Assembly (NCBI RefSeq): GCF_000002985.6
Contig: NC_003284.9
Span: forward strand, 4,154,001-4,218,000
Length of the DNA: 64,000 nucleotides
Direction of reading: 5' to 3'
Source of the DNA: Caenorhabditis elegans
Taxonomy: Eukaryota > Nematoda > Chromadorea > Rhabditida > Rhabditidae
Shown: positions 45,892 to 64,000 of the stretch, in pieces
Layout of the letters: every line of letters begins with the position of its first letter
How positions within the stretch are numbered: position 1 is the stretch's first letter
The notes under the pieces: model-generated
What the model was told of the DNA's origin: nothing
The model's input: the letters and a program-made list of their open reading frames with translations, nothing else
The model's database searches: none
Program-made: the position numbers and the translations under genes

Positions 45892-46056
45892 GACTTCTCG
45901 CGTGACCTGTCGATGATACTTAGTGATCACTGAAAAAATTGTATTTATTACAAAAAAAATGTCAAAAATTAAAGCAACATTCCGTGACAAAAAATCAGGT
46001 TGAGAAAAAAGCAAGATGTCAGTGAAAAATAGTGTTTTGCAGTGCGTTCAGTGGTA

Positions 46057-46066
46057 TTTTATATAA
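46057..46066 (-). promoter_or_regulatory. TATA box upstream of the Arg/Ser-rich gene
   Basis: TTATATAAAA on the minus strand lies about 130 bases upstream of the presumed SL1 acceptor. Confidence 0.45.
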
Positions 46067-46504
46067 GTTAAACTAACAGTACACTTGGCGACTCTACAAG
46101 GATTTATTATAGACAACTAGTAACACTAATAGACAAGTAACGCAAGAACATAAAGTAAGAACAAAAGCAAGTAAAAGTTAAGACTGATTCGATGAGCATC
46201 TCCTGTTGGGCGGTGTTGTACACGTGTCTTGTGGTCGTCGGTGTAGACGTGGAAAGGTCACCACGTGGCTGCTCGCGTCCGTCATCCTTTTGTGCATGCG
46301 GTAGTGGTTCACGTGTTTAATGGATTGACGTCCTTGTTCTTGGTTGCATGATGAAGTTCTCAGAGCAATGTGGATGTGGATTGTTGGTAGTAGTGATCTT
46401 CGCCAGTAGAGTTCAATTACAGTAATACTTATGCAATAATTATAGAATAATTATCAAGTCGTGAATAATGGAGATCCTGCTCCATGCTATTCGCGACAAA
46501 TAGT

Positions 46505-46650
46505 GCTTCGAGACCATCCGTAATTAATAGGGCTCCCTTTAAGCTTGACATGGATTTTATTGATTTTCAAGTTCATTTTTCGCACTTTTGGAGCATTTTC
46601 CAAAAATTTTTTGTAAATACTGTATGAAAAACTTTATTTTAGCCATTTTC
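46505..46650 (+). repeat. Direct repeat, unit 1
   Basis: It begins GCTTCGAGACCATCCGTAAT and matches 46870-47015 over roughly 145 bases with moderate divergence, ending in a TTATTTTAGCC acceptor-like end. Confidence 0.75.
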
Positions 46651-46869
46651 TACGTGCCAAGTACATTTTGTGAGTTTAGAGAGGGCAAAATTTCGATTTA
46701 TAGTGACATTTCGTTAATTTAAAAGCTTTTTAGTAGATTAAAATAAATAAATTACGTGAAAATCAAAGAAAATTCATTTAAAATCGACGGAAATAGGCGA
46801 GAATTGTAAAATCGATAAACCATATCGTGTACAGTAACCTTAAAGGTGCACACCTTGAAATGTGTTTTC

Positions 46870-47015
46870 GCTTCGAGACCATCCGTAATAAATAAGGCTC
46901 CCTTTAAACTTGAGGTGGGTTTTATTGATTTTTAAGCTAATTTTTCGCAATTTTCGATCATTTTCCATACAATTTTTGTAATTTCTGTATAAAAAAATTT
47001 AATTTTAGCCTAAAT
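46870..47015 (+). repeat. Direct repeat, unit 2, leading into the phosphatase fragment
   Basis: A copy of 46505-46650, 365 bases downstream. It ends at TTAATTTTAGCCTAAATTCCAG, the acceptor of the first phosphatase exon, so the repeat is probably duplicated phosphatase intron. Confidence 0.75.
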
Positions 47016-47020
47016 TCCAG

Positions 47021-47526
47021 AGACAACGTCGGATTTGTCGACTTGGAAGACCACCGCGTTTACACCGAATCTTGCACTGAGGTTTGCAATTTTTCAGTCA
47101 TTTTTTTTTTTTGCAAATTAAAGTATTTTAGATTGAAATCGGCGGAAAATCAAAGGACAAAATCACCCATCGAGTGTTGAAAGTTGTGGTGAAGGCGACC
47201 GGCCAGGAATCTAAACTAAACCACTATCAATGGGCTTCTTGGCCGGACCATGGGATGCCCGATTCGTGTGACACGGCGCATCGTCTCTTGTCGGCTGTCA
47301 AGAAGGATAAGTAAGATTTTTTAAAAAGATTTTAATCTCATTTTCCAGCCAAAAATCGAGAAAATCTTCCAGGAAGCCCGTAATTGCTCACTGCTCGGCT
47401 GGCGTTGGACGCACCGGGACTTTGGTGTTGATCGAGTCGATGATTGCCGCACTCCGGCATCCGAGAAAGCAGAATGTGAAGGATTCATTCGTCTTGTTGA
47501 GAAAAGACCGCGCAAGAAGTGTTCGG
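47021..47526 (+). pseudogene. Protein tyrosine phosphatase, C-terminal half fragment
   Basis: Exon-like blocks 47021-47081, 47132-47310 and 47373-47526 splice in frame. They encode the second half of a classical PTP domain: [15 protein letters not shown] (the WPD loop) and [10 protein letters not shown] (the P-loop with catalytic Cys and Arg). The catalytic residues are intact, but the N-terminal half of the domain is missing here and lies inverted at 47716-48274. The end after ARSVR|GTAATT has no partner; a dispersed MITE follows. It is probably a rearranged pseudogene, although the reading frame is not broken. Confidence 0.8.
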
Positions 47527-47553
47527 GTAATTATTTATAAATTGAAATAACTT

Positions 47554-47700
47554 TTAAAGGTGGAGTAGTGCCAGTGGGGAAATTGCTTTAAAACACGCCT
47601 ATGGTACCACAATGACCAAATATCATGATAAAAAAATTCAAAAAATTTTCTAGATTTTATATGATTTTTTGAAAATTGAAAAAATCTCTCGTTCCGGTTT
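47554..47700. repeat. Dispersed MITE-like repeat, copy 4, between the phosphatase halves
   Basis: It carries AAAGGTGGAGTAGTGCCAGT, GGTACCACAATGACCAAATA and TCATGATAAAAAAATTC. It sits at the junction between the two oppositely oriented phosphatase pieces. Confidence 0.65.
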
Positions 47701-47715
47701 CGTGCAAATTTTTAC

Positions 47716-48274
47716 AAAATTCGCATGAATGTAGAAGTTTTCATCGCCGGCAAGTGTGAAGCGGCCGCGATCCCAACATTGAATGTTCGGATAGCGGTTG
47801 AGATCCTTGAACTTTAGAAACGCCGTACATTCCGAGTCGGGAAACTGGAGAGATATTAATTTATTAATTTATTTATTTACGCTCTCGAGCCATCGGAGAA
47901 AGATATTTATATCTTACAATATTTCCGACGGCTTTGTACTCTTTCGTCAGTTGCTGTGGAGTGCTCATCATCACCGCAGAAGCCCACTTTTTGATCATTT
48001 CCGCACGTTGCTCTTTCTCTTTCGGCTGAAAATTTCAGAGTTTTTGTGTTAAAAAATCTTCTACAGAGTTCTACAATACCTCCAAATCCTTCTTCTCACT
48101 GCCCAAATCATCATCATCGTCGTTCTTCTTCACCTTGGCATCCTTCTCATGCGACGGTTTTGGCTTTCCGTTGTTGTCAGGAGGCTTCAGGACGCTTTCC
48201 GGAGTGTCCTCCATATTCGCATTTTGCTCCACAGACCGCTGGCGCTCCAATGGAGCCGGCTTCTCATCGTCTTC
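47716..48274 (-). pseudogene. Protein tyrosine phosphatase, N-terminal half fragment
   Basis: Minus-strand blocks 48274-48080, 48025-47918 and 47844-47716 splice in phase 0. They encode an acidic/Lys-rich linker, a helical stretch ([12 protein letters not shown]) and the PTP entry segment with [14 protein letters not shown] and YIHAN, the substrate-recognition loop of classical PTPs. The middle of the domain (the segment usually carrying a QAP/FW-type motif) is absent, and the second half lies inverted to the left. Further 5' exons are lost or lie beyond the inverted-repeat element at 48430. The style resembles the large sperm-enriched nematode PTP family. Confidence 0.75.
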
Positions 48275-48662
48275 CTGTAATAGTCAGGTTATCGAGTTTT
48301 CCACAAAGTTTTACTGGTCTGGCGTGCAAATATCTCGTAGCGAAGGGGCCTCTCTGTCGGCATTTTCGCGCCAGAAAGTAGGTCATAATATTTACTAGAG
48401 GAAATACGTAGTCCAGTTGTTTTATTGCTTTATTAGACTCAAAATTGTCTGAAAACCCGGAATTTCATAATAAAACTTCATGAAAACTTCTCAAAAAAAA
48501 GTTATGACGCCTCAAAAAATGGCCCTAAATTAGTTTAAATTTGAAATTTGACCGATTTGTCAAGCGGCTGGAAACTAACTTTTTTGATATTACCGTCTAA
48601 TTTTGAGTATACAATGTAATTATCGTGCGTTTTCAACAGTTTTCAACAGTTTTCAACAGGTA

Positions 48663-48733
48663 TTTTAAAGTCGATGGACGGCGAGATTTGGTTTTAAAAA
48701 ATTAAAAATCTCGCCGTCCATCGACTTTAAAAT
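48663..48733. repeat. Long hairpin within the inverted-repeat element
   Basis: Arms of about 28 bases (TTTTAAAGTCGATGGACGGC and onward, and its complement ending CGACTTTAAAA) flank a 15-base A/T-rich loop. RNA from either strand would fold tightly. Confidence 0.85.
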
Positions 48734-49059
48734 CCCTGACTAGCGGGCCCTGCGGGCCCGCCAGTTGTAGGGGGTGTGAGGCGAGTCCCCTTGCCGGGCG
48801 TAGGCTCTCGGCTTCGCCTCGAACCTGTTAGAAGGTTCGTGAAAATTTCAGTTTCAGTAGGTCGATGGGAGTCTTCTTGTTTTTTGAGTTCGGTTTGACC
48901 AAAAACAGATGCACCCGATGAATCAGTTAAAGCTGAGTTTTGATTGATTGAAGTTTGAGGAGGCTTTATATTAGGGGAGACGTACCCATATTTTGTATAA
49001 ATTTGAGTATTTCTATTCGAATCCCGATTACTCACAAAAAAACAAAAAAATTTGTCACT

Positions 49060-49122
49060 TGGTAGAATTGAACCAACTACCAAAATTTCTGCAGTCATAC
49101 GCACTAACCACTCGGCCATGCG
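49060..49122 (-). repeat. tRNA-like module with pol III A and B boxes
   Basis: On the minus strand, TGGCCGAGTGG (49118-49108) matches the A box TRGCNNAGYGG and GGTTCAATTCT (49074-49064) matches the B box, 33 bases apart, as in a tRNA. No complete acceptor stem is evident, so it is a tRNA relic or SINE-like promoter rather than a working tRNA. Confidence 0.65.
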
Positions 49123-50644
49123 GGAGACACCTCAAACTGGGATGTAGGGAAGAAAATTTTCTGGAGGAAGTCGTCTTTCGATTCCGCTTTCTTCAATTAT
49201 TACTATTTGGGGAAGACGTTCGAAAACCGTTTATTAGTGATATGTCAGCGGGAAAACGAATTTTTGAAAATTTTATTACAGGATTGTACTCATTATTGAA
49301 TTCCCGAAAAGGAGACGTACAGTTGAGGGTTATATCTTGTACACAGACAGATGTATAGAAGAAAACAAGTTTTGGCCTGAAAATAAAAAAAAATAATATC
49401 TCTTGGCAAAGCATTGCTAACGCGACGAAACTTCATCTTCCATTAAATAAAATCAAAAACTATGAATTAAAAATACATTCCGCAAAACTTTAGTGGAAAA
49501 AATGTTCAGGGGACCCAGGAAACCACTCCCAAAATTTTTGAATTATTTTTTTCTTGAAAAATTTTCCCACTGAACTTTTTACAAATTTTATATGTTCCGA
49601 TGCGTCTTGATGAGACCTACACGTCAATTTTTAGAAAACTAAGAAAACTTGAAAACTGACCGAGTTATGATTGAAAAAGTAGATTCGCGAAATAGGGGGA
49701 GTGTGCAAAATTTTGCACTTATTCGTCTTGCTCGGCCGACTCATAAAACTTTTCTTAATTTTGAGTTAAAAATCGTGTTCAGCGTACTTTTTTACGTAGG
49801 GTAAGCAAAAAAAATATCAAAAAAGATGAAGTACAACTTCAGATAAAGACGAAAAACTACTTTTTCGGAAAAAAATTTTTTTTGGCAAAATGTCATTTTT
49901 TGGCCTTTTGTTTTATCACAACTTTTTTCCATTTGCACTTATAAACTCAAACTATTTTTCAAAAAATCCACCTCTCTAAGTAGTATCTTGCACATAAATT
50001 TGGAACAAAACCGAGCAAAACCCGAATTTTAATTCAATTAAAACATGCTTTTTTGGGGGTAAAAAGAGCAACAAAAATTTTTTTCAAACTGGGGAAAGTC
50101 GCCCTGGGCTCAATTTTGCTCCGAACTTAGTGCCGTTTTCTGCTCCACCGTGGGGCAAAATATTTCTAGTAGGATTTCAAATATTAGAGCATGAAGTCAC
50201 ACGGTTCAGGAGTTGTGAATGAAAACGAAGTGGGACATTTTTTCGCAAGCCAAAAAAAACGCGAAAAAACGCGAAAAAGGGGCGGAGTCGCCACACTCGG
50301 CATTTATTAGAGGCTGCTTGGCAGAATGATGTTGAAAACATAAGATAATTACATTGTATACTCAAAATTAGACGGTGATTTCAAAAAAGTTAGATTCTAG
50401 CCGCTTGACAAGTCGGTCAAATTTCAAATTTTAACTAATTTTAGGCCATTCTTTGAGTCATCATAACTTTTTTTCGAGAAGTTTTCAAGTAGTTTCATTA
50501 TAAAATTCGGTGTTTTCAGGCAATTTTGAGTCTAATTAATATTTATTTATTTATTAAATTAATATTTATTTATTAAATTAATATTTATTTATTTATTTAA
50601 TATTTATTTAAAAATAATTAAAATAGAAAAGAAAAAATTAAAAA

Positions 50645-50760
50645 ATTAGAAGTCGTCGTCGTCCATCGTCCCGAACCATCCCGAAGCCATTCATCCCGAT
50701 CGTCCTGATCCTTCCACCATATTGTTGCACTACAGATTTCAGCATCTGTAAAAACTTGTG
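50645..50760. repeat. (CCATCC/CGATCC)n minisatellite, left part
   Basis: Repeats of CATCGTCCCGAACCATCCCG type end in TTTCAGCATCTGTAAAAACT, as at 53025-53050. The foldback element is inserted just after this block. Confidence 0.7.
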
Positions 50761-50989
50761 GTTAAAGCTAACTAGGGAATGGTGTTACCCCTGCAATCGC
50801 TAGGAGGACAAAACAAAGTGAAAATGGAAGATCAGATCTATGGCTACAAGAATCAGTTTTTGGAATCTGCTAAACTCGGTCCCAAAGCTGACATTTTCGG
50901 TCTTAAAAAGTAGTCCTCTTTTTGCTCAAAATGCCCTTTTTCGTGTGTAGAAGTGGCTACATAAAAGTTTGGCACTGCAGCCGCCGTTT

Positions 50990-51052
50990 GAATGGCCGAT
51001 TGGTGAACTCTCGTGCTCATTAATCTAAAGGTCACGGGTTCGTTCCCCACTA
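50990..51052 (+). repeat. tRNA-like module in the left foldback arm
   Basis: TGGCCGATTGG (50993-51003) is an A-box near-match and GGTTCGTTCCC (51037-51047) is a good B box. The spacing is that of a tRNA. It lacks a clear acceptor stem. Confidence 0.65.
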
Positions 51053-51862
51053 GGTATTAATTTTTTTTTGAAATTTTCCTCTAGCATGAAATATGCACAA
51101 AAACACGGCTTCTTCCGTTTTTTGGTAACTTCGGAATAAATTTTTTGGTTCCTGGGAATCATAAAAGTAATTTGGAAACTTTTTGGAAGTTTTCTTTTTT
51201 TGATAAATTTTCACTTTTCTCCCACCTGATGTATGCACATTTTTTTCTTCAAAAATAATTTTTCAAAAAGTGTTTGGTTTGAAAGAGCAGCATTAGTTTG
51301 GATATTTCTACGATTTTGGAGGATCAAATGTACATTATGGACATTAGTAATTAAGTAAGTTAAAGCTTCACTTCGATTAGCTATATCTCTCTACCCATAA
51401 AATTTAGCAGAGTAACTTCAACTGACAATTTGTTTATTGGTACTTTTAAAATAACTTTGCAGTTGACAACTTTTTTTTATTTTACTCGTCAACGGAGCTG
51501 GAAGTCTTTGAAAGTAGGTCCTTTTCGTGAAAAACTCTAGAGAAAACAACAGTGGTTTTCTCCTAAAAATGACATTTGATCCTCCAAAATCGTAGAAATA
51601 TCCAAACTAATGCTGCTCTTTCAAACCAAACACTTTTTGAAAAAATTTTGAAAAATTATTTTTGAAGAAAAAAATGTGCATACATCAGGTGGGAGAAAAG
51701 TGAAAATTTATCAAAAAAAGAAAACTTCCAAAAAGTTTCCAAATTATTTTTATGATTCCCAGGAACCAAAAAATTTATTCCGAAGTTACCAAAAAACGGA
51801 AGAAACCGTGTTTTTGTGCATATTTCATGCTAGAGGAAAAATTCAAAAAAAAATTAATATCT

Positions 51863-51922
51863 AGTGGAGAACGAACCCGTGACCTTTAGATTAATGAGCA
51901 CGAGAGTTCACCAATCGGCCAT
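51863..51922 (-). repeat. tRNA-like module in the right foldback arm
   Basis: This is the inverted copy of the left-arm module (GGGGAACGAACC is replaced by GGAGAACGAACC on the plus strand here), so one B-box base differs between arms. Confidence 0.65.
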
Positions 51923-52157
51923 TCAAACGGCGGCTGCAGTGCCAAACTTTTATGTAGCCACTTCTACACACAAAAAACGGCATTTTGAGCAAAAAGAGGA
52001 CTACTTTTTAAGACCGAAAATTTCAGCTTTGGGACCGAGTTTAGCAGATTCCAAAAACTGATTCTTGTAGCCATAGATCTGATCTTCCATTTTCACTTTG
52101 TTTTGTCCTCCTAGCGATTGCAGGGGTAACACCATTCCCTAGTAAGTTAGTTAAAGC

Positions 52158-53380
52158 ATCAAACAAATTCCTTACAAGTTTGGCCTTTCTTTTTTCCATC
52201 CATTCTTCCTTCCTACCATCCATCCTTTGATCATCATCGTTTGCTTGAGTTCTATAAAAAGCTACATTTTAGTTGAAGCTGAAAGGAGAAAGGATCACTT
52301 TTACCAGTCCATCAGGATTGCCATCGATCCATCCACCCATCCGATCCTTCGTCGTCCTCGTCCATCGTCCCGATCCATCCCGAAGCCATCCATCTCGATC
52401 GTTCGTCGTCGTCATTGCGTCGTCCATCCACCCATCGATTGAATCCATTCATGCAACTTCAAGTGATGTTCTGTACCGTTAGAACCGTGCAGCATCACCC
52501 ATTACAATTTACCTATGTGGCAAGAACCGTCCGATAAGCCCTCGTTTGTTTGACGCTATTTCCAGTCTCCTTGTTCTTTTTTCGTAGGAGTTCGCATTTC
52601 CCATTAAGAGATTAATCAGTTTCACGGCCTCTGAGTACGGTACAAGATTTGTTTGTTTCCAAACAAATCATCTCAGGGGGGTAGCAGTGAATCCGAAAAT
52701 GCAGCCCTTGCCTACTACTTTTGAACCCGGTTTAGAAATTGGACAGTGACAAATTCAAGCAAACCAGTTCAGTCCAAGCCAGGTAAACTTAATGGGGACG
52801 CTACACTCACAAGAAGGAGCAAGATGGACTCACTTAACGTCCATCCCGATCCGTCCCGAATTCATCCATCCTTTGTCGTCGTCATTTTGTCCCAAATCGC
52901 TTTCGATCGTCCCAATCCATCCATCCATCCTTATTGTTTGTCGTCGTCGTCGTCTTGTCCCGATCCATTCGTCCTGATTGGCCTGCCCATTCAACCCATT
53001 GTCCAGAGTTTCTTCAATCACAGCTTTCAACATCTGTAAAAGTTCTTAGTTTAGATGACGCATCAAACAAATTCCTTACAACTTTGGATTTTCTATTTCC
53101 ATTGTTCCAACCATCCATCCTTTCCTACCATCCATCCTTCGTCGTTTGATAGAAATCTGTAAAAAGTTACATGTTAGTTGAAGCTGAAAGGAGAAATGAT
53201 CACTTACCAGTCCATCCCGATCTGCCCCGGATCTATCCATCCCGATCGTCGTTGATCCATCCATCCATCCATCCGATCCTTTGTCGTCGTCGAACATCGT
53301 CCCAATCCATCTCGAATCCATTCATCCCGAGCGTTCTGATCCTTCCATCTAGAGTCCACCATATTGTTCCTGAAAGCATC
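52158..53380. repeat. (CCATCC)-rich minisatellite with internal ~900-base duplication
   Basis: Two related units begin with GCATCAAACAAATTCCTTAC at about 52156 and 53062 and each runs through CCATCC tracts to TTAGTTGAAGCTGAAAGGAG near 52270 and 53171. On the minus strand the tracts read GGATGGATGGAT, giving Asp/Gly/Trp/Met-rich frames. Confidence 0.75.
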
Positions 53381-53485
53381 AAGGTTTTGAGGGAAACACC
53401 TAGATAAAATGAAACATACCGATATGAGAAGGTGTTGGAATGCCGAAAAGCGTGCGTCTCCTCCAGCTGATGTTTCCTGAATTTC
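53208..53485 (-). CDS. Exon-like pair ahead of the minisatellite, unrecognised
   Basis: On the minus strand, TTTTTTTTCAG opens an exon at 53485-53420 ending ATCG|GTATGT, and GCTTTCAG opens another at 53369-53208 ending ACTG|GTAAGT. They join in phase 2 to an open frame of about 75 codons that becomes low-complexity in the GGAT repeats. The next acceptor (near 53158) would give an immediate stop. No start codon is placed. It is either a relic or a fast-evolving gene with a repeat tail. Confidence 0.3.
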
Positions 53486-53489
53486 CTGA

Positions 53490-54730
53490 AAAAAAAACAA
53501 TTATATTTGTGTAAAGTTAAAAGAGAAAGAAAGAAAGAAGGAAATTTATCATTGAAAAATCAGTCCGAGTATGACTGACTTATGCCCCACCAGTTGATTC
53601 AAGTCAGGACAATGTTACAGGGGTTGGAAAAACTATTCAGAGTCAAAAAATAAATAAAAAAAGCATAGGGAATACTTCCAGAATGAAAAATAAAATAAAT
53701 TGTAGTATGAATTTCAGATATTTCAGTAAGTTTGTTTTGGTAAAGAAGTGTCAAGAAACTAAAAAATTGAAGAATCAAGAAGCGTCCCGGTGAGGACGTC
53801 ACTCTCACAAGAAGGGGAAAAAATGAATGAATGACAATGTTTAAGTTTCCGGATGGATTTATGGAGACTGGAGATGTGCACAAAGAGCGTAGAGAGAAAG
53901 AGAGAGAGACACAGACACAACAATTACAGTCGGCACAGACGAACCGCGATATACAACTGCACAGAGCAACGTCACACTCACACGAAGGAGACGCGGTGTG
54001 TTCAAGAGAGTGAATGAAATTTCAAAGTAAATGAACCATTCATTTGTAAACGAGCAAAAGTGAAAACATTTGTAAATGAGCGTCAAAGGGATTGAACATT
54101 CAAGTTAATGAGCACGCTAGTAAATGAGTGTTTGCCTTATAATTTTAGATACACGTGCAATCAACTATGGGTTGTCAGATTTCAATACTGACAAGCCAGG
54201 TCTTGTCGAAACTTGGATGCCTGCTTTTCCATTAGTTAAAACTCCTTACGATTTAACTGTGCCCACAAAACCTTAGAAACTCGATACTTCAGGGATAATC
54301 GATCGCAAGCTTCGAGAATTAGTTGCAACATGGTTTTACATTTCCGTATCTTTTTCACATTTTTGAATCGTTGCAAAAAGCTTAATTCTGTACCATAGAT
54401 GAAAGGGGATCAATCTAGCTTTTCAGGAAGATCGGAAATAACTTTCGTGAAAGTTTGACAAGTGTTATTTTCCGACGATAGAACCAAAACTGGAAATAGA
54501 GAAACTTCTCAAAATAAAATGTACCACGTTCACTTATCTCCAAAATTGGACTTGGAAAAAACTTATTGAGAATATATCTTTTGGCAAAAAAAATAGCAGA
54601 AATTTTTTTGGTCGACTTCTTTGGAAATGTATTCTTATCACTGAAAACTGTACCAAATATTCTACACACTTTCCATTTGACTTAAACCACGCGAACACTG
54701 AAACCATCACCGATTAAAATATTTACACAA
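53490..54730. other. Intergenic stretch with purine-rich tract
   Basis: It includes a GA-rich tract at about 53880-53925 and a CGTCACTCTCACAAGAAGG-type word (53796 on) resembling 52797 and 53969. I see no gene. Confidence 0.4.
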
Positions 54731-54736
54731 GTCTCA

Positions 54737-55301
54737 TTGCGCAGGGACACCCTTTCGCGATGGCTATTGCAGATATCGACTTAATGAATGTCATCAAAAG
54801 AGAAGAAATAGTGAAACAATAAGATTTTTGTTAATTTCAAAACTAAAGTGAGATGTCTAAAAATTAATTCACATGATGAACTTGTTGAACTAAACTGAAC
54901 TTCTTTGAAAATGTAGCACAAGTTTTTTAATGCTATTAACTGATCGAAATGACCAACTGATGTATTTTTGCGAGACGAGAAAATTGAGTGCGAAACCAAG
55001 TATAATTGAATCCTAGTATTATTGTTTCGTAATTTGGAAATTCTATTATAAGAAAACTCTTCAGACACAATTCTACGTCTAACGGTTTAACCTCATCTGA
55101 GAAAATTTTTTGCAAATGTGACTTGCCCATTTTTTTAATACAAAAGGACGGTTTTTATAATTTTTTTCGCAAGTGGCTCAATTCTTCAAATTCATCTGCT
55201 TAACTATAAAACACATTCAATCAATACCCCTTTGCCATTTTGCCATCGCGCGGAGAAAGAGGTGTCCCTGCGCGATAGCGGCAATTTTATCGCGAAGGGA
55301 G
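54737..55301. promoter_or_regulatory. Cluster of MEX-like motifs: candidate rex site
   Basis: The dosage-compensation MEX consensus, as I recall it, is TCGCGCAGGGAG. Matches by eye are 55264-55275 on the minus strand (TCGCGCAGGGAC, 11/12), 55290-55301 on the plus strand (TCGCGAAGGGAG, 11/12), 54737-54748 plus (TTGCGCAGGGAC, 10/12) and 55246-55257 plus (9/12). Two strong sites in opposite orientation 14 bases apart are typical of recruitment elements on X that bind the SDC/DPY complex. Confidence 0.6.
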
Positions 55302-55319
55302 CTCAGGTGCGCGCGTGGT

Positions 55320-56200
55320 TACAATTATATAGAACTCATGCGAAACAAGTGGTTCTCGTTTATTTTGTGTCAAAAAAGAATATTATACATTTCGCGACGG
55401 AAAAAAGGATATTTGAAATATAAAAAATGACTACAACATTTTACTAGTTGGTGAAACTTAAGATTTTTTGTTGTTTTTTATACATATTTTTCCTGTAGTT
55501 TTTTGGGAAAACGCACCGTTTTTCACATTAGGTTTGGTTTCCCAAAAAAAATTAACCATAATACTGGAAAGACACGTTAGCAGGTAAAAATCAGCTTGAA
55601 ATTCCTGTAAAATAAATACTGCAGCGCAATGTTCAATTTTCTCAAGCATTCTAATTATGTCAACAGGTTATTGGAGTTTTTTAAACTGCTTTATATTTTC
55701 TGCTTGTTAAGTTTAAAAACTGTAAGTTTGAACTACCTATGTAAAATTAATTCATTCATTCCAAAATGCATACGGTCAAGCAAAATACAAAAGTCTAATT
55801 TGAATTCCCGCGCAACATAACTGGCGTGCAAGATTCAAATTCTGTCATTTCTAGCCATGTTTGTAAGGTTTGGTATTATTAACAGTTTTTTCAGTTTTTG
55901 TTGTATTGTACTGGTCAGTATCAGCACTTCAGTTATATTTTTCAGTATTTTCCCAGCGATGATCATCCTTCTTCAAGCAATAATGCAATTTCTGAGTGAT
56001 GAAGTTAGTGCTTGAAATCCACACAAAATTATTCCGTCTGCAAATCTGATGAGCAAACTTGGTTGGCGTAAATGTTGCTGTTTGGCAACTTCGGCAACAG
56101 CCAATTTTAATTCAAATGTTTTTTGTTTTGTTTTTGAAACCCGCGATGCGAATATCTCACCGTAACATGCCAAAATTTAAGTTCAACTGAAAAATGTTTT
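55320..56200. other. Intergenic AT-rich stretch
   Basis: I see no gene; the short frames lack start, splice or family support. Confidence 0.45.
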
Positions 56201-56204
56201 AAAA

Positions 56205-56352
56205 TACACTCAAAGTAATAAAACTGCGTTGCGTGTACGACCAAATAGGCCCCGATGGGGTACCGCTTTTTGCCTTTTCCCCGTGAGTGAACGAGAAAAA
56301 GGCGGGGCCTATTTTGGTGTACACGCAACGCAGTTTTATTATTTTGAGTGTA
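56205..56352. mobile_element. Short hairpin MITE (148 bp)
   Basis: The ends TACACTCAAAGTAATAAAAC and GTTTTATTATTTTGAGTGTA are inverted repeats, and pairing continues through GCGTTGCGTGTAC and ATAGGCCCC for about 55 bases per arm. TA at both ends fits a Tc1/mariner-type TA target. There is no ORF. Confidence 0.85.
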
Positions 56353-56359
56353 GTCACAA

Positions 56360-57700
56360 TTTCGGCGACTTAGCTTCACGGTGCCCGGAAAAGTACCGTG
56401 ATTCCGGCAACCGACCTCTGCCGGTTCTAGCGTTTGGTAAATTTTTTAATGCCCTGTTCATCACATGCGTTTCGCATTAATTTTCAATTTGACCTGCTCC
56501 TCGTCTTCAAATTGTCTTATATTGTAAATAATGTCAATGTTAATATGTGATGTTAAAAGAATCAATAAGAAATTTCGAACGCCATTCTTTTTATTATATT
56601 GGTACATTTTGGGACGGATAAATACAATTTTAGTTTTATTAAAACAAAAGTCAAGAGGACAGAGATTCCGGTGAGAAGGGAAGTGTCACAAAATAAATGT
56701 GGTAAAAATGTTCAGCGAACAAAATTATTTTTAAAAAATTGCAATGACTTTGCAAAAAGAGAAAAAAAAAGAAAAAAGAACCGACAGTAAAAAGCATGGA
56801 GGCAGACAGTTTTGAAACAACTGCACAGCGAAGATTTTCAAAATAGGGACCAACGGTTGTACTCGTGGGGGAAGAGAACTAAGAAAAGGAAGAGGCTTTT
56901 TGTAGAAAAAAACAGGAAACAAAAAAGTGTTTCTTCAAAAATTCGTATTAAAATCCACGGGGACTTGAGAATGGTTGATGAAGAACATTTGAACGTAAGG
57001 GGGGAAAAAGAGTGAAGCGGACAAATTACCAATTTTTTTTGGCTTTTGAGTATTTCACTTTTTTTTGGTATTTTTTAGCGAATTTTTTTTCGTGTGAAAT
57101 ATGACAGTAAACAACACCAACTAAGGAGCAACGAATTTTAGTGGGGCGGGGAAACAGTGAGAAGATGCGACTAAGTTGTTCTCAAACATATCACAAGGAA
57201 CAATAAATTACAGTATCAGCAAATTTAAAGGTTTGCAACAGAGAGAATGGTAGCAAGAAGTAAAGTAAAGTATACAGAAAGAGAGAGTGAGAGAGACATG
57301 AGAGAAACAAAGAGCAAGAAAGAAAAAAAAGAAGTGGTTGGATTTTGTCTATAAAAACGTACCAGTTAACTTAGTAGCGTTCGTGGAATGGGGCGCATGA
57401 CTGGACAATCAAACAACCATCACAGGAGTGAAATGACGAGAAAACAGAACAATTTGTGGAAGACAAAAAACGTGGGTTCAATAAGAAAAGAAAAGTGATT
57501 ATTTCAAAAAAAAAAAGTTGGGGTGCAAAATAGAGCAATCATCAGAAAGTAAAGAAAATGAGCTCTTGCGTGCTCATTCATTCTAATCTAGAATATTGAA
57601 TTCATAGGTTTTTTTTTTGTTTTCGGGAAACCAAACTTAATTATTATATTAAAATGATGATGATTTTCCAACACAAAACGTTTTGGAATATGCGAGTGCA
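56360..57700. other. hpk-1 downstream region
   Basis: It holds CGGCAACCG-type repeat fragments (56363-56435) and a long GA-rich tract (57278-57335). A minus-strand AATAAA at 56590-56595 could end a 1.1-kb hpk-1 3' UTR. I see no separate gene. Confidence 0.45.
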
Positions 57701-57709
57701 ATGAAGTGA

Positions 57710-63059
<5,350 letters not shown>

Positions 63060-64000
63060 CGCCACCCAATCAAACAATCGATGAAATCAGTGAAGCAGTC
63101 GTGTTGGACGCCGCCTCCAGCTTCTCACTCCCAGATGCTTTTCTCGCCGTCAGGCCGACCTCCGCCGTTTGGAGACTTGGTGCACAGGCTCGCCAAATTT
63201 TCAGTTGATCAGTGTCCTTTATGGTAAACGGTGTGTATAGTGAAAACGCTCGAAGGTCTCTGCGAAAAGCAGAGATTCCCGACCCGTCTCCTGAAACAAG
63301 GCATTTTTCTATGAGACTGATATAAAAGTGTGCGAATAAAATTCATAAGGAAAGAGGCAAAAAAAATATTGAAAAAAAAGAAACGAGAAGATTATAAGGT
63401 ATAATCTCAGAAAGGGAAGTGCTGGTGTGTTGAAAAAAGGGGGAGAAAGAAGAAAGAAAAAAAAGAGAAAAACACAATACTTATGACGTGGAAAGTATGT
63501 GCCCAGAGGTGGCAGCAGGTCGGATTGATGAACAATGACAAAAACATGGTGCCCCTACACACTCACCATTATGATTCACTTTACAAAAATTAAATAGAAG
63601 GATGAACAATGGATGATTAAGGAATTCTGAAAATGATACCAATACCTTTTGGAGGCTCTACACCATCAGTTATGGTATTTTTTGTATTCCGAGAGAAGTT
63701 ACGGTTTTAGGTATTTTAAACGTAAAACCCAAAAATGTGTTCAAGTTTCGTGATAAAACTTTTAAAAAAATTTAAAAATTGTTTTAATGTCGTTTCAAAA
63801 TTTCGAAAAAGAACTAAGTTTCGCTAAAATCTCGGCAGTTGGTCGGAAGTTGATTTTTTGAGATTATCTTTAATTGAGGTATTTTTCAGTCGTTGGGTAA
63901 CAAATTTGGATCATTTTTTAGTTAACTATTGGTTTTAAATGTACCTTAATCAACCAAATGAATTGAAAGAAACGGCTTATATATGCAATAAAGAATGACA
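63060..64000. promoter_or_regulatory. hpk-1 upstream region
   Basis: GC-rich sequence at 63060-63290 continues from the first coding exon and is probably 5' UTR and core promoter. Beyond it is purine-rich (63350-63470), then AT-rich. No further gene is visible. Confidence 0.45.

Follow-up and report, generated by a model that had tools for sequence, protein, structure and literature searches.

The MEX motif pair at 4.209 Mb of the Caenorhabditis elegans X chromosome most likely forms the core of the recruitment element rex-23

Identity of the motif cluster

Does a closely spaced pair of MEX (motif enriched on X) motifs in a 64,000-nucleotide stretch of the Caenorhabditis elegans genome (the window, analysed at its full length; NC_003284.9, 4,154,001–4,218,000) mark a recruitment element on X (rex) for the dosage compensation complex (DCC), and if so, which one? 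In hermaphrodites this machinery cuts the activity of X genes to half. The initial annotation had proposed a rex site here and had assigned the DNA to the X chromosome. The window was scanned with TCGCGCAGGGAG, which we take to be the MEX consensus. PMC5451215 gives a MEX core, GCGCAGGG, and a 'perfect' 12-mer, ATCGCGCAGGGA, with both of which it agrees. Scores (ln P) come from our own matrix, which was trained on 20 motifs from nine other X clusters, with the present locus excluded, and was used in place of the published one. Exactly two 11/12 matches exist in the window, at 55264–55275 on the minus strand (TCGCGCAGGGAC, ln P −18.16) and at 55290–55301 on the plus strand (TCGCGAAGGGAG, ln P −16.69), pointing away from each other with 14 bases between them, just as had been described. 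Shifted by one base, to 55265–55276, the first is the perfect motif ATCGCGCAGGGA. The 10/12 match annotated some 0.5 kb away was also recovered, as a distal MEX-like motif of uncertain role at 54737–54748 on the plus strand (TTGCGCAGGGAC, ln P −14.10). The weaker adjacent match is present too, a 9/12 match at 55246–55257 on the plus strand (TCGCGCGGAGAA), yet its score (ln P −10.42) is within background for our matrix, whereas the other three motifs stand above it.

The chromosome was settled by position. Motifs on the same contig at 11,094,123 and 11,094,224 fall inside the published rex-8 interval (chrX:11,093,923-11,094,322, WS220; PMC5451215), so the contig is X, as had been assumed, and the window corresponds to X:4,154,001-4,218,000 of C. 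elegans. PCR primers have been published for a fluorescence in situ hybridization (FISH) probe of about 5 kb around rex-23 (PMC5047749). Each has a single match in the genome: the forward primer at window positions 52985–53004 on the plus strand (X:4,206,985-4,207,004) and the reverse primer at 57679–57699 on the minus strand (X:4,211,679-4,211,699). The probe interval they delimit, 52985–57699 (4,715 bp, unstranded), has its midpoint at 55342, about 40 bp off the motif pair, and the MEX cluster at 55264–55301 is the sole one found in the whole window. Because the primers are unique and bracket the motif pair, the site is identified as rex-23, which bears out the proposed rex site. The locus is thus almost certainly rex-23, a DCC recruitment element on the C. 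elegans X, with the divergent MEX pair at 55264–55301 most likely its core.

The site is therefore already known and catalogued. Its name implies that the element was scored as a rex, and the legend of Figure 7D in PMC5047749, which reads as ranking rex-23, among the rex sites examined, in the 25 most DCC-occupied, suggests high DCC occupancy. The same paper reports that XO embryos do not recruit rex-23 to the nuclear periphery more than XX embryos do, and that older embryos show the reverse. The locus described there and the one described here are the same and do not differ; the motif positions are the addition of the present analysis.

Two points weigh against this identification. It rests on a 4.7-kb probe interval together with the only motif cluster found inside it, and rex-23 is without an exact copy of the octamer GTGGATAA, which is present at rex-8, rex-14 and rex-32 and is treated below; it has only GTGGTTAC, a 6/8 match at a spacing of 13. 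The motif pair might be an unbound MEX cluster, and rex-23 recruitment might come from another part of the probe, for example from MEX II or Motif C, motifs of 26 and 9 bp reportedly described by Fuda et al. in 2022. We regard this as very improbable. The motif pair lies at the middle of the rex-23 probe, and all 17 X motif clusters of PMC5451215 are DCC-bound. The pair also includes a perfect motif, and that paper gives 10 copies of the perfect motif on X and one on the autosomes, with every X copy overlapping a recruitment site. Our own tally is the same, 10 of 11 on X. It was made in 64 loci (27 on X, 37 autosomal) holding at least 69 places within one mismatch of TCGCGCAGGGAG, at least 32 of them on the X contig (C6) and at least 37 on the autosomal contigs (C1–C5); the single autosomal copy is on C5, and window positions 55265–55276 are among the 10 X copies. 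Since all X perfect motifs are reported to overlap recruitment sites, this one should as well.

Rarity of the cluster and its likeness to other X loci

A different objection is that the cluster arose by chance, in DNA that contains CpG. The 300-bp bin at 55201–55500 does have the highest observed/expected CpG ratio (1.66) among the 19 bins across 52501–58200, and a weaker pair exists in the X background, in one stretch (L070, about X:2,306,838) with motifs at ln P −12.22 and −10.93. As background we used 200 kb of X, taken as 20 stretches of 10 kb, and the 37 autosomal loci, which had been chosen for having a motif. Within the window, only the motifs at 55264, 55290 and 54737 reach ln P −12; the best score after theirs is −11.99. 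All three reach ln P −14 or better, against an expectation of 0.11 per 64 kb. The 200-kb X background has none at this level; three of its hits reached −12 and none reached −13. The window also holds 22 matches to TCGCGCAGGGAG at three or fewer mismatches, compared with 12.19 expected (sd 3.28), a count that none of 100 shuffles reached. With the named rex-23 located here, a chance arrangement has next to no probability; the primer mapping refutes it, unless rex-23 lies elsewhere in the probe.

We then compared X and autosomes for clustering, which the initial annotation had held to distinguish true X recruitment sites. A motif within one mismatch of the consensus was accompanied, no more than 250 bp away, by a second one (ln P −10.5 or better) in 12 of the 27 X loci but in two of the 37 autosomal loci (Fisher P 0.0003), a count that leans towards X in that nine of the 12 X clusters had trained the matrix. 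Because two autosomal loci are clustered too, clustering alone is not decisive. This matches PMC5451215, which reports 17 motif clusters on X, all DCC-bound, and five non-recruiting clusters on autosomes, states that clustering alone does not fully part X from autosomes, and also names overlap with high-occupancy target (HOT) sites.

By the cluster definition of PMC5451215, a strong MEX motif with a second within 200 bp, the motifs at 55264 (minus) and 55290 (plus) form a cluster as scored with our matrix. The distal motif at 54737, about 500 bp from the others, falls outside this definition and may have no part in recruitment. We infer that the working core is the 55264/55290 pair and not the distal motif. 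Together with its flank (54736–54751), the distal motif forms a 16-nt inverted match of 94% with 55261–55276, and the unmasked alignment of distal element and core scores 35, compared with at most 25 in 500 shuffles. An origin of the distal element as an inverted copy of the core was considered and rejected: with MEX masked, only GCCATCGCG is left, with a score of 18 that 2 of 200 shuffles reached (an imperfect null). Judged from the alignments, common ancestry of the two beyond the motif thus does not appear to be supported.

Likeness to other X clusters was examined in the same way. The nearest match to the rex-23 core among the 63 other motif loci is a divergent pair at X:14,525,898-14,525,934 (L027), with 13 bases between its motifs, which aligns over both motifs and the spacer with a score of 50 (next, 34). 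Once MEX was masked the score fell to 26 and the locus was no longer the best, an autosomal locus (L038) scoring 30. Because masking removes its first rank, the likeness is mostly that of the motifs themselves, and shared ancestry of the two loci beyond the motif is not supported, the best rank of 63 holding only while the motifs were unmasked. A second comparison is offered by a locus at 8.036 Mb (X:8,036,399-8,036,444), which we take to be rex-14; another at 2.997 Mb is presumably rex-32. Two perfect motifs were found at each of these loci, in agreement with PMC5451215 for rex-14 and rex-32. Like rex-23, the 8.036-Mb locus has a divergent MEX pair as its core, with 22 bases between the motifs rather than 14. 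There, each of the two motifs is followed at a distance of 13 bases by an exact GTGGATAA, whereas rex-23 has only GTGGTTAC after one of its motifs.

Motif orientation and the octamer GTGGATAA

Neighbouring pairs in the X clusters were tallied by hand, taking starts at most 60 bp apart and motifs at ln P −10.5 or better. The 11 such pairs, rex-23 included, comprise six divergent, five tandem and no convergent ones. All six opposite-facing pairs are therefore divergent (two-sided P 0.03, post hoc), and leaving out rex-23 gives five of five (P 0.06). Strong, close opposite-facing pairs at X 4.209, 5.430, 8.036 and 14.526 Mb (L010, L011, L015 and L027) are divergent. A strict convergent pattern, with 4–34 bases between cores, had no match in the whole genome, while the strict divergent form gave four matches and the strict tandem form three in the 27 X loci, and neither gave any in the 37 autosomal loci or in the 200 kb of X; the comparison is uneven, as convergent pairs were counted genome-wide and the other two forms, apart from the X background, only in loci chosen for holding a motif.

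Two weak pairs count against an orientation bias. One is the convergent pair in the X background stretch L070, and the other is in rex-23 itself, where the weak plus-strand match at 55246, just under the −10.5 cut, is convergent with the minus-strand motif at 55264. A prevalence of divergent and tandem arrangements among close MEX pairs is thus not established, and since weak convergent pairs occur at these two places, a divergent bias, if real, is limited to strong motifs. Published accounts have studied MEX orientation in relation to contacts of topologically associating domains (TADs), with a negative result (PMC9635877, PMC5451215), and the parts of these two accounts consulted make no mention of a divergent bias.

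The second feature concerns the octamer GTGGATAA. It lies 11–14 bases 3' of MEX at six of 32 X motifs (three of 27 loci) and at none of 37 autosomal motifs, an enrichment with Fisher P of 0.008 by motif and 0.07 by locus. The loci concerned are L009, L015 and L020, taken as rex-32, rex-14 and rex-8, and the combination also occurs at X:9,465,883-9,465,913. In a genome-wide search, the seven matches to the pattern GCGMAGGGN{8,22}GTGGATAA, spread over four loci, all fell on X; the backwards control gave none. The looser pattern AGGGN{10,20}GTGGATAA had 44 matches, 15 of them on X, against 77 for its backwards control; without the eight X matches that stand behind a MEX-like motif, seven of 36 are on X, close to the fraction of the genome that X makes up. 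One more instance, behind a weaker motif, was seen at 16.056 Mb, and at 16.682 Mb the octamer is on the opposite side of the motif.

At rex-23 the related sequence GTGGTTAC occupies 55315–55322 on the plus strand, 13 bases 3' of the motif at 55290, and its assignment is speculative. Allowing a range of 8–17 bases, four of 32 X motifs and two of 37 autosomal motifs have a best match of six positions to GTGGATAA, and for this reason GTGGTTAC is not significant for rex-23 alone. The role of GTGGATAA as a co-motif following MEX is likewise not established, and the published MEX II may already include this octamer. A literature search for GTGGATAA with elegans returned no rex-site paper, as judged by title and start of abstract among the matches listed, and GGATAA was not found in the passages of PMC3983662 consulted.

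Orientation and octamer together would describe an oriented architecture common to a set of strong rex sites: a divergent pair of strong MEX motifs 13–22 bases apart, each optionally followed by GTGGATAA 11–14 bases downstream. We consider such an architecture unlikely, and slightly less likely than we first held, because weak convergent pairs occur, one of them in rex-23.

Surroundings of rex-23 and its proposed function

The element adjoins the open frames of a HIPK-type protein kinase gene on the minus strand (57710–60107). The part searched, 59502–60107, matches Pfam PF00069 (E 1.6e-30), and the best PDB matches of its product are HIPK2 and HIPK3. We take this gene to be hpk-1. By inference, the rex core lies past the 3' side of the kinase gene. 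Elsewhere, an open frame of the protein-tyrosine phosphatase family was seen at 47311–47550 on the plus strand (PF00102, E 1.7e-12). The inverted repeat at 56205–56352, whose 50-nt arms are 92% complementary and separated by 48 nt, resembles a small palindromic repeat element. Two 70-aa open frames of almost the same sequence at 51050–51262 (minus) and 51652–51864 (plus), about 0.4 kb apart, face opposite ways, and 51050–51864 is therefore read as an inverted repeat as well. ARAGORN found no tRNA in the 64-kb window, and no Rfam family matched in 46000–64000.

In the likely mechanism for rex-23, SDC-2, with SDC-3 and DPY-30, would recognise the motif cluster in XX embryos. Bound to the motif pair, SDC-2 would keep the chromatin open and load condensin DC (DPY-27 and its partners), which would then spread to neighbouring chromatin and help to halve X expression. 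For the events that lead from SDC-2 to condensin DC we rely on the literature on rex sites as a class, while the motifs, their rarity, the X location and the identity of the site come from this analysis. According to that literature, SDC-2 recognises rex sites, maintains their open state and recruits condensin DC, which then spreads (PMC8825453, PMC5451215, PMC9635877); the motifs act in synergy in C. elegans (PMC10076027), and eight rex sites are at TAD boundaries (PMC8825453).

The locus serves in the first place as a positive control, and a clean one, for the reading of raw sequence: a real element was found and placed on the right chromosome, with no new discovery. Of wider interest, the combination of MEX with GTGGATAA could be relevant to the question of which features other than MEX direct the complex to X, provided that MEX II does not already contain it. 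If the oriented architecture were true, SDC-2 would bind in the form of an oriented dimer, with another DNA-binding factor as partner, and the partner element would in part set rex strength and X specificity.
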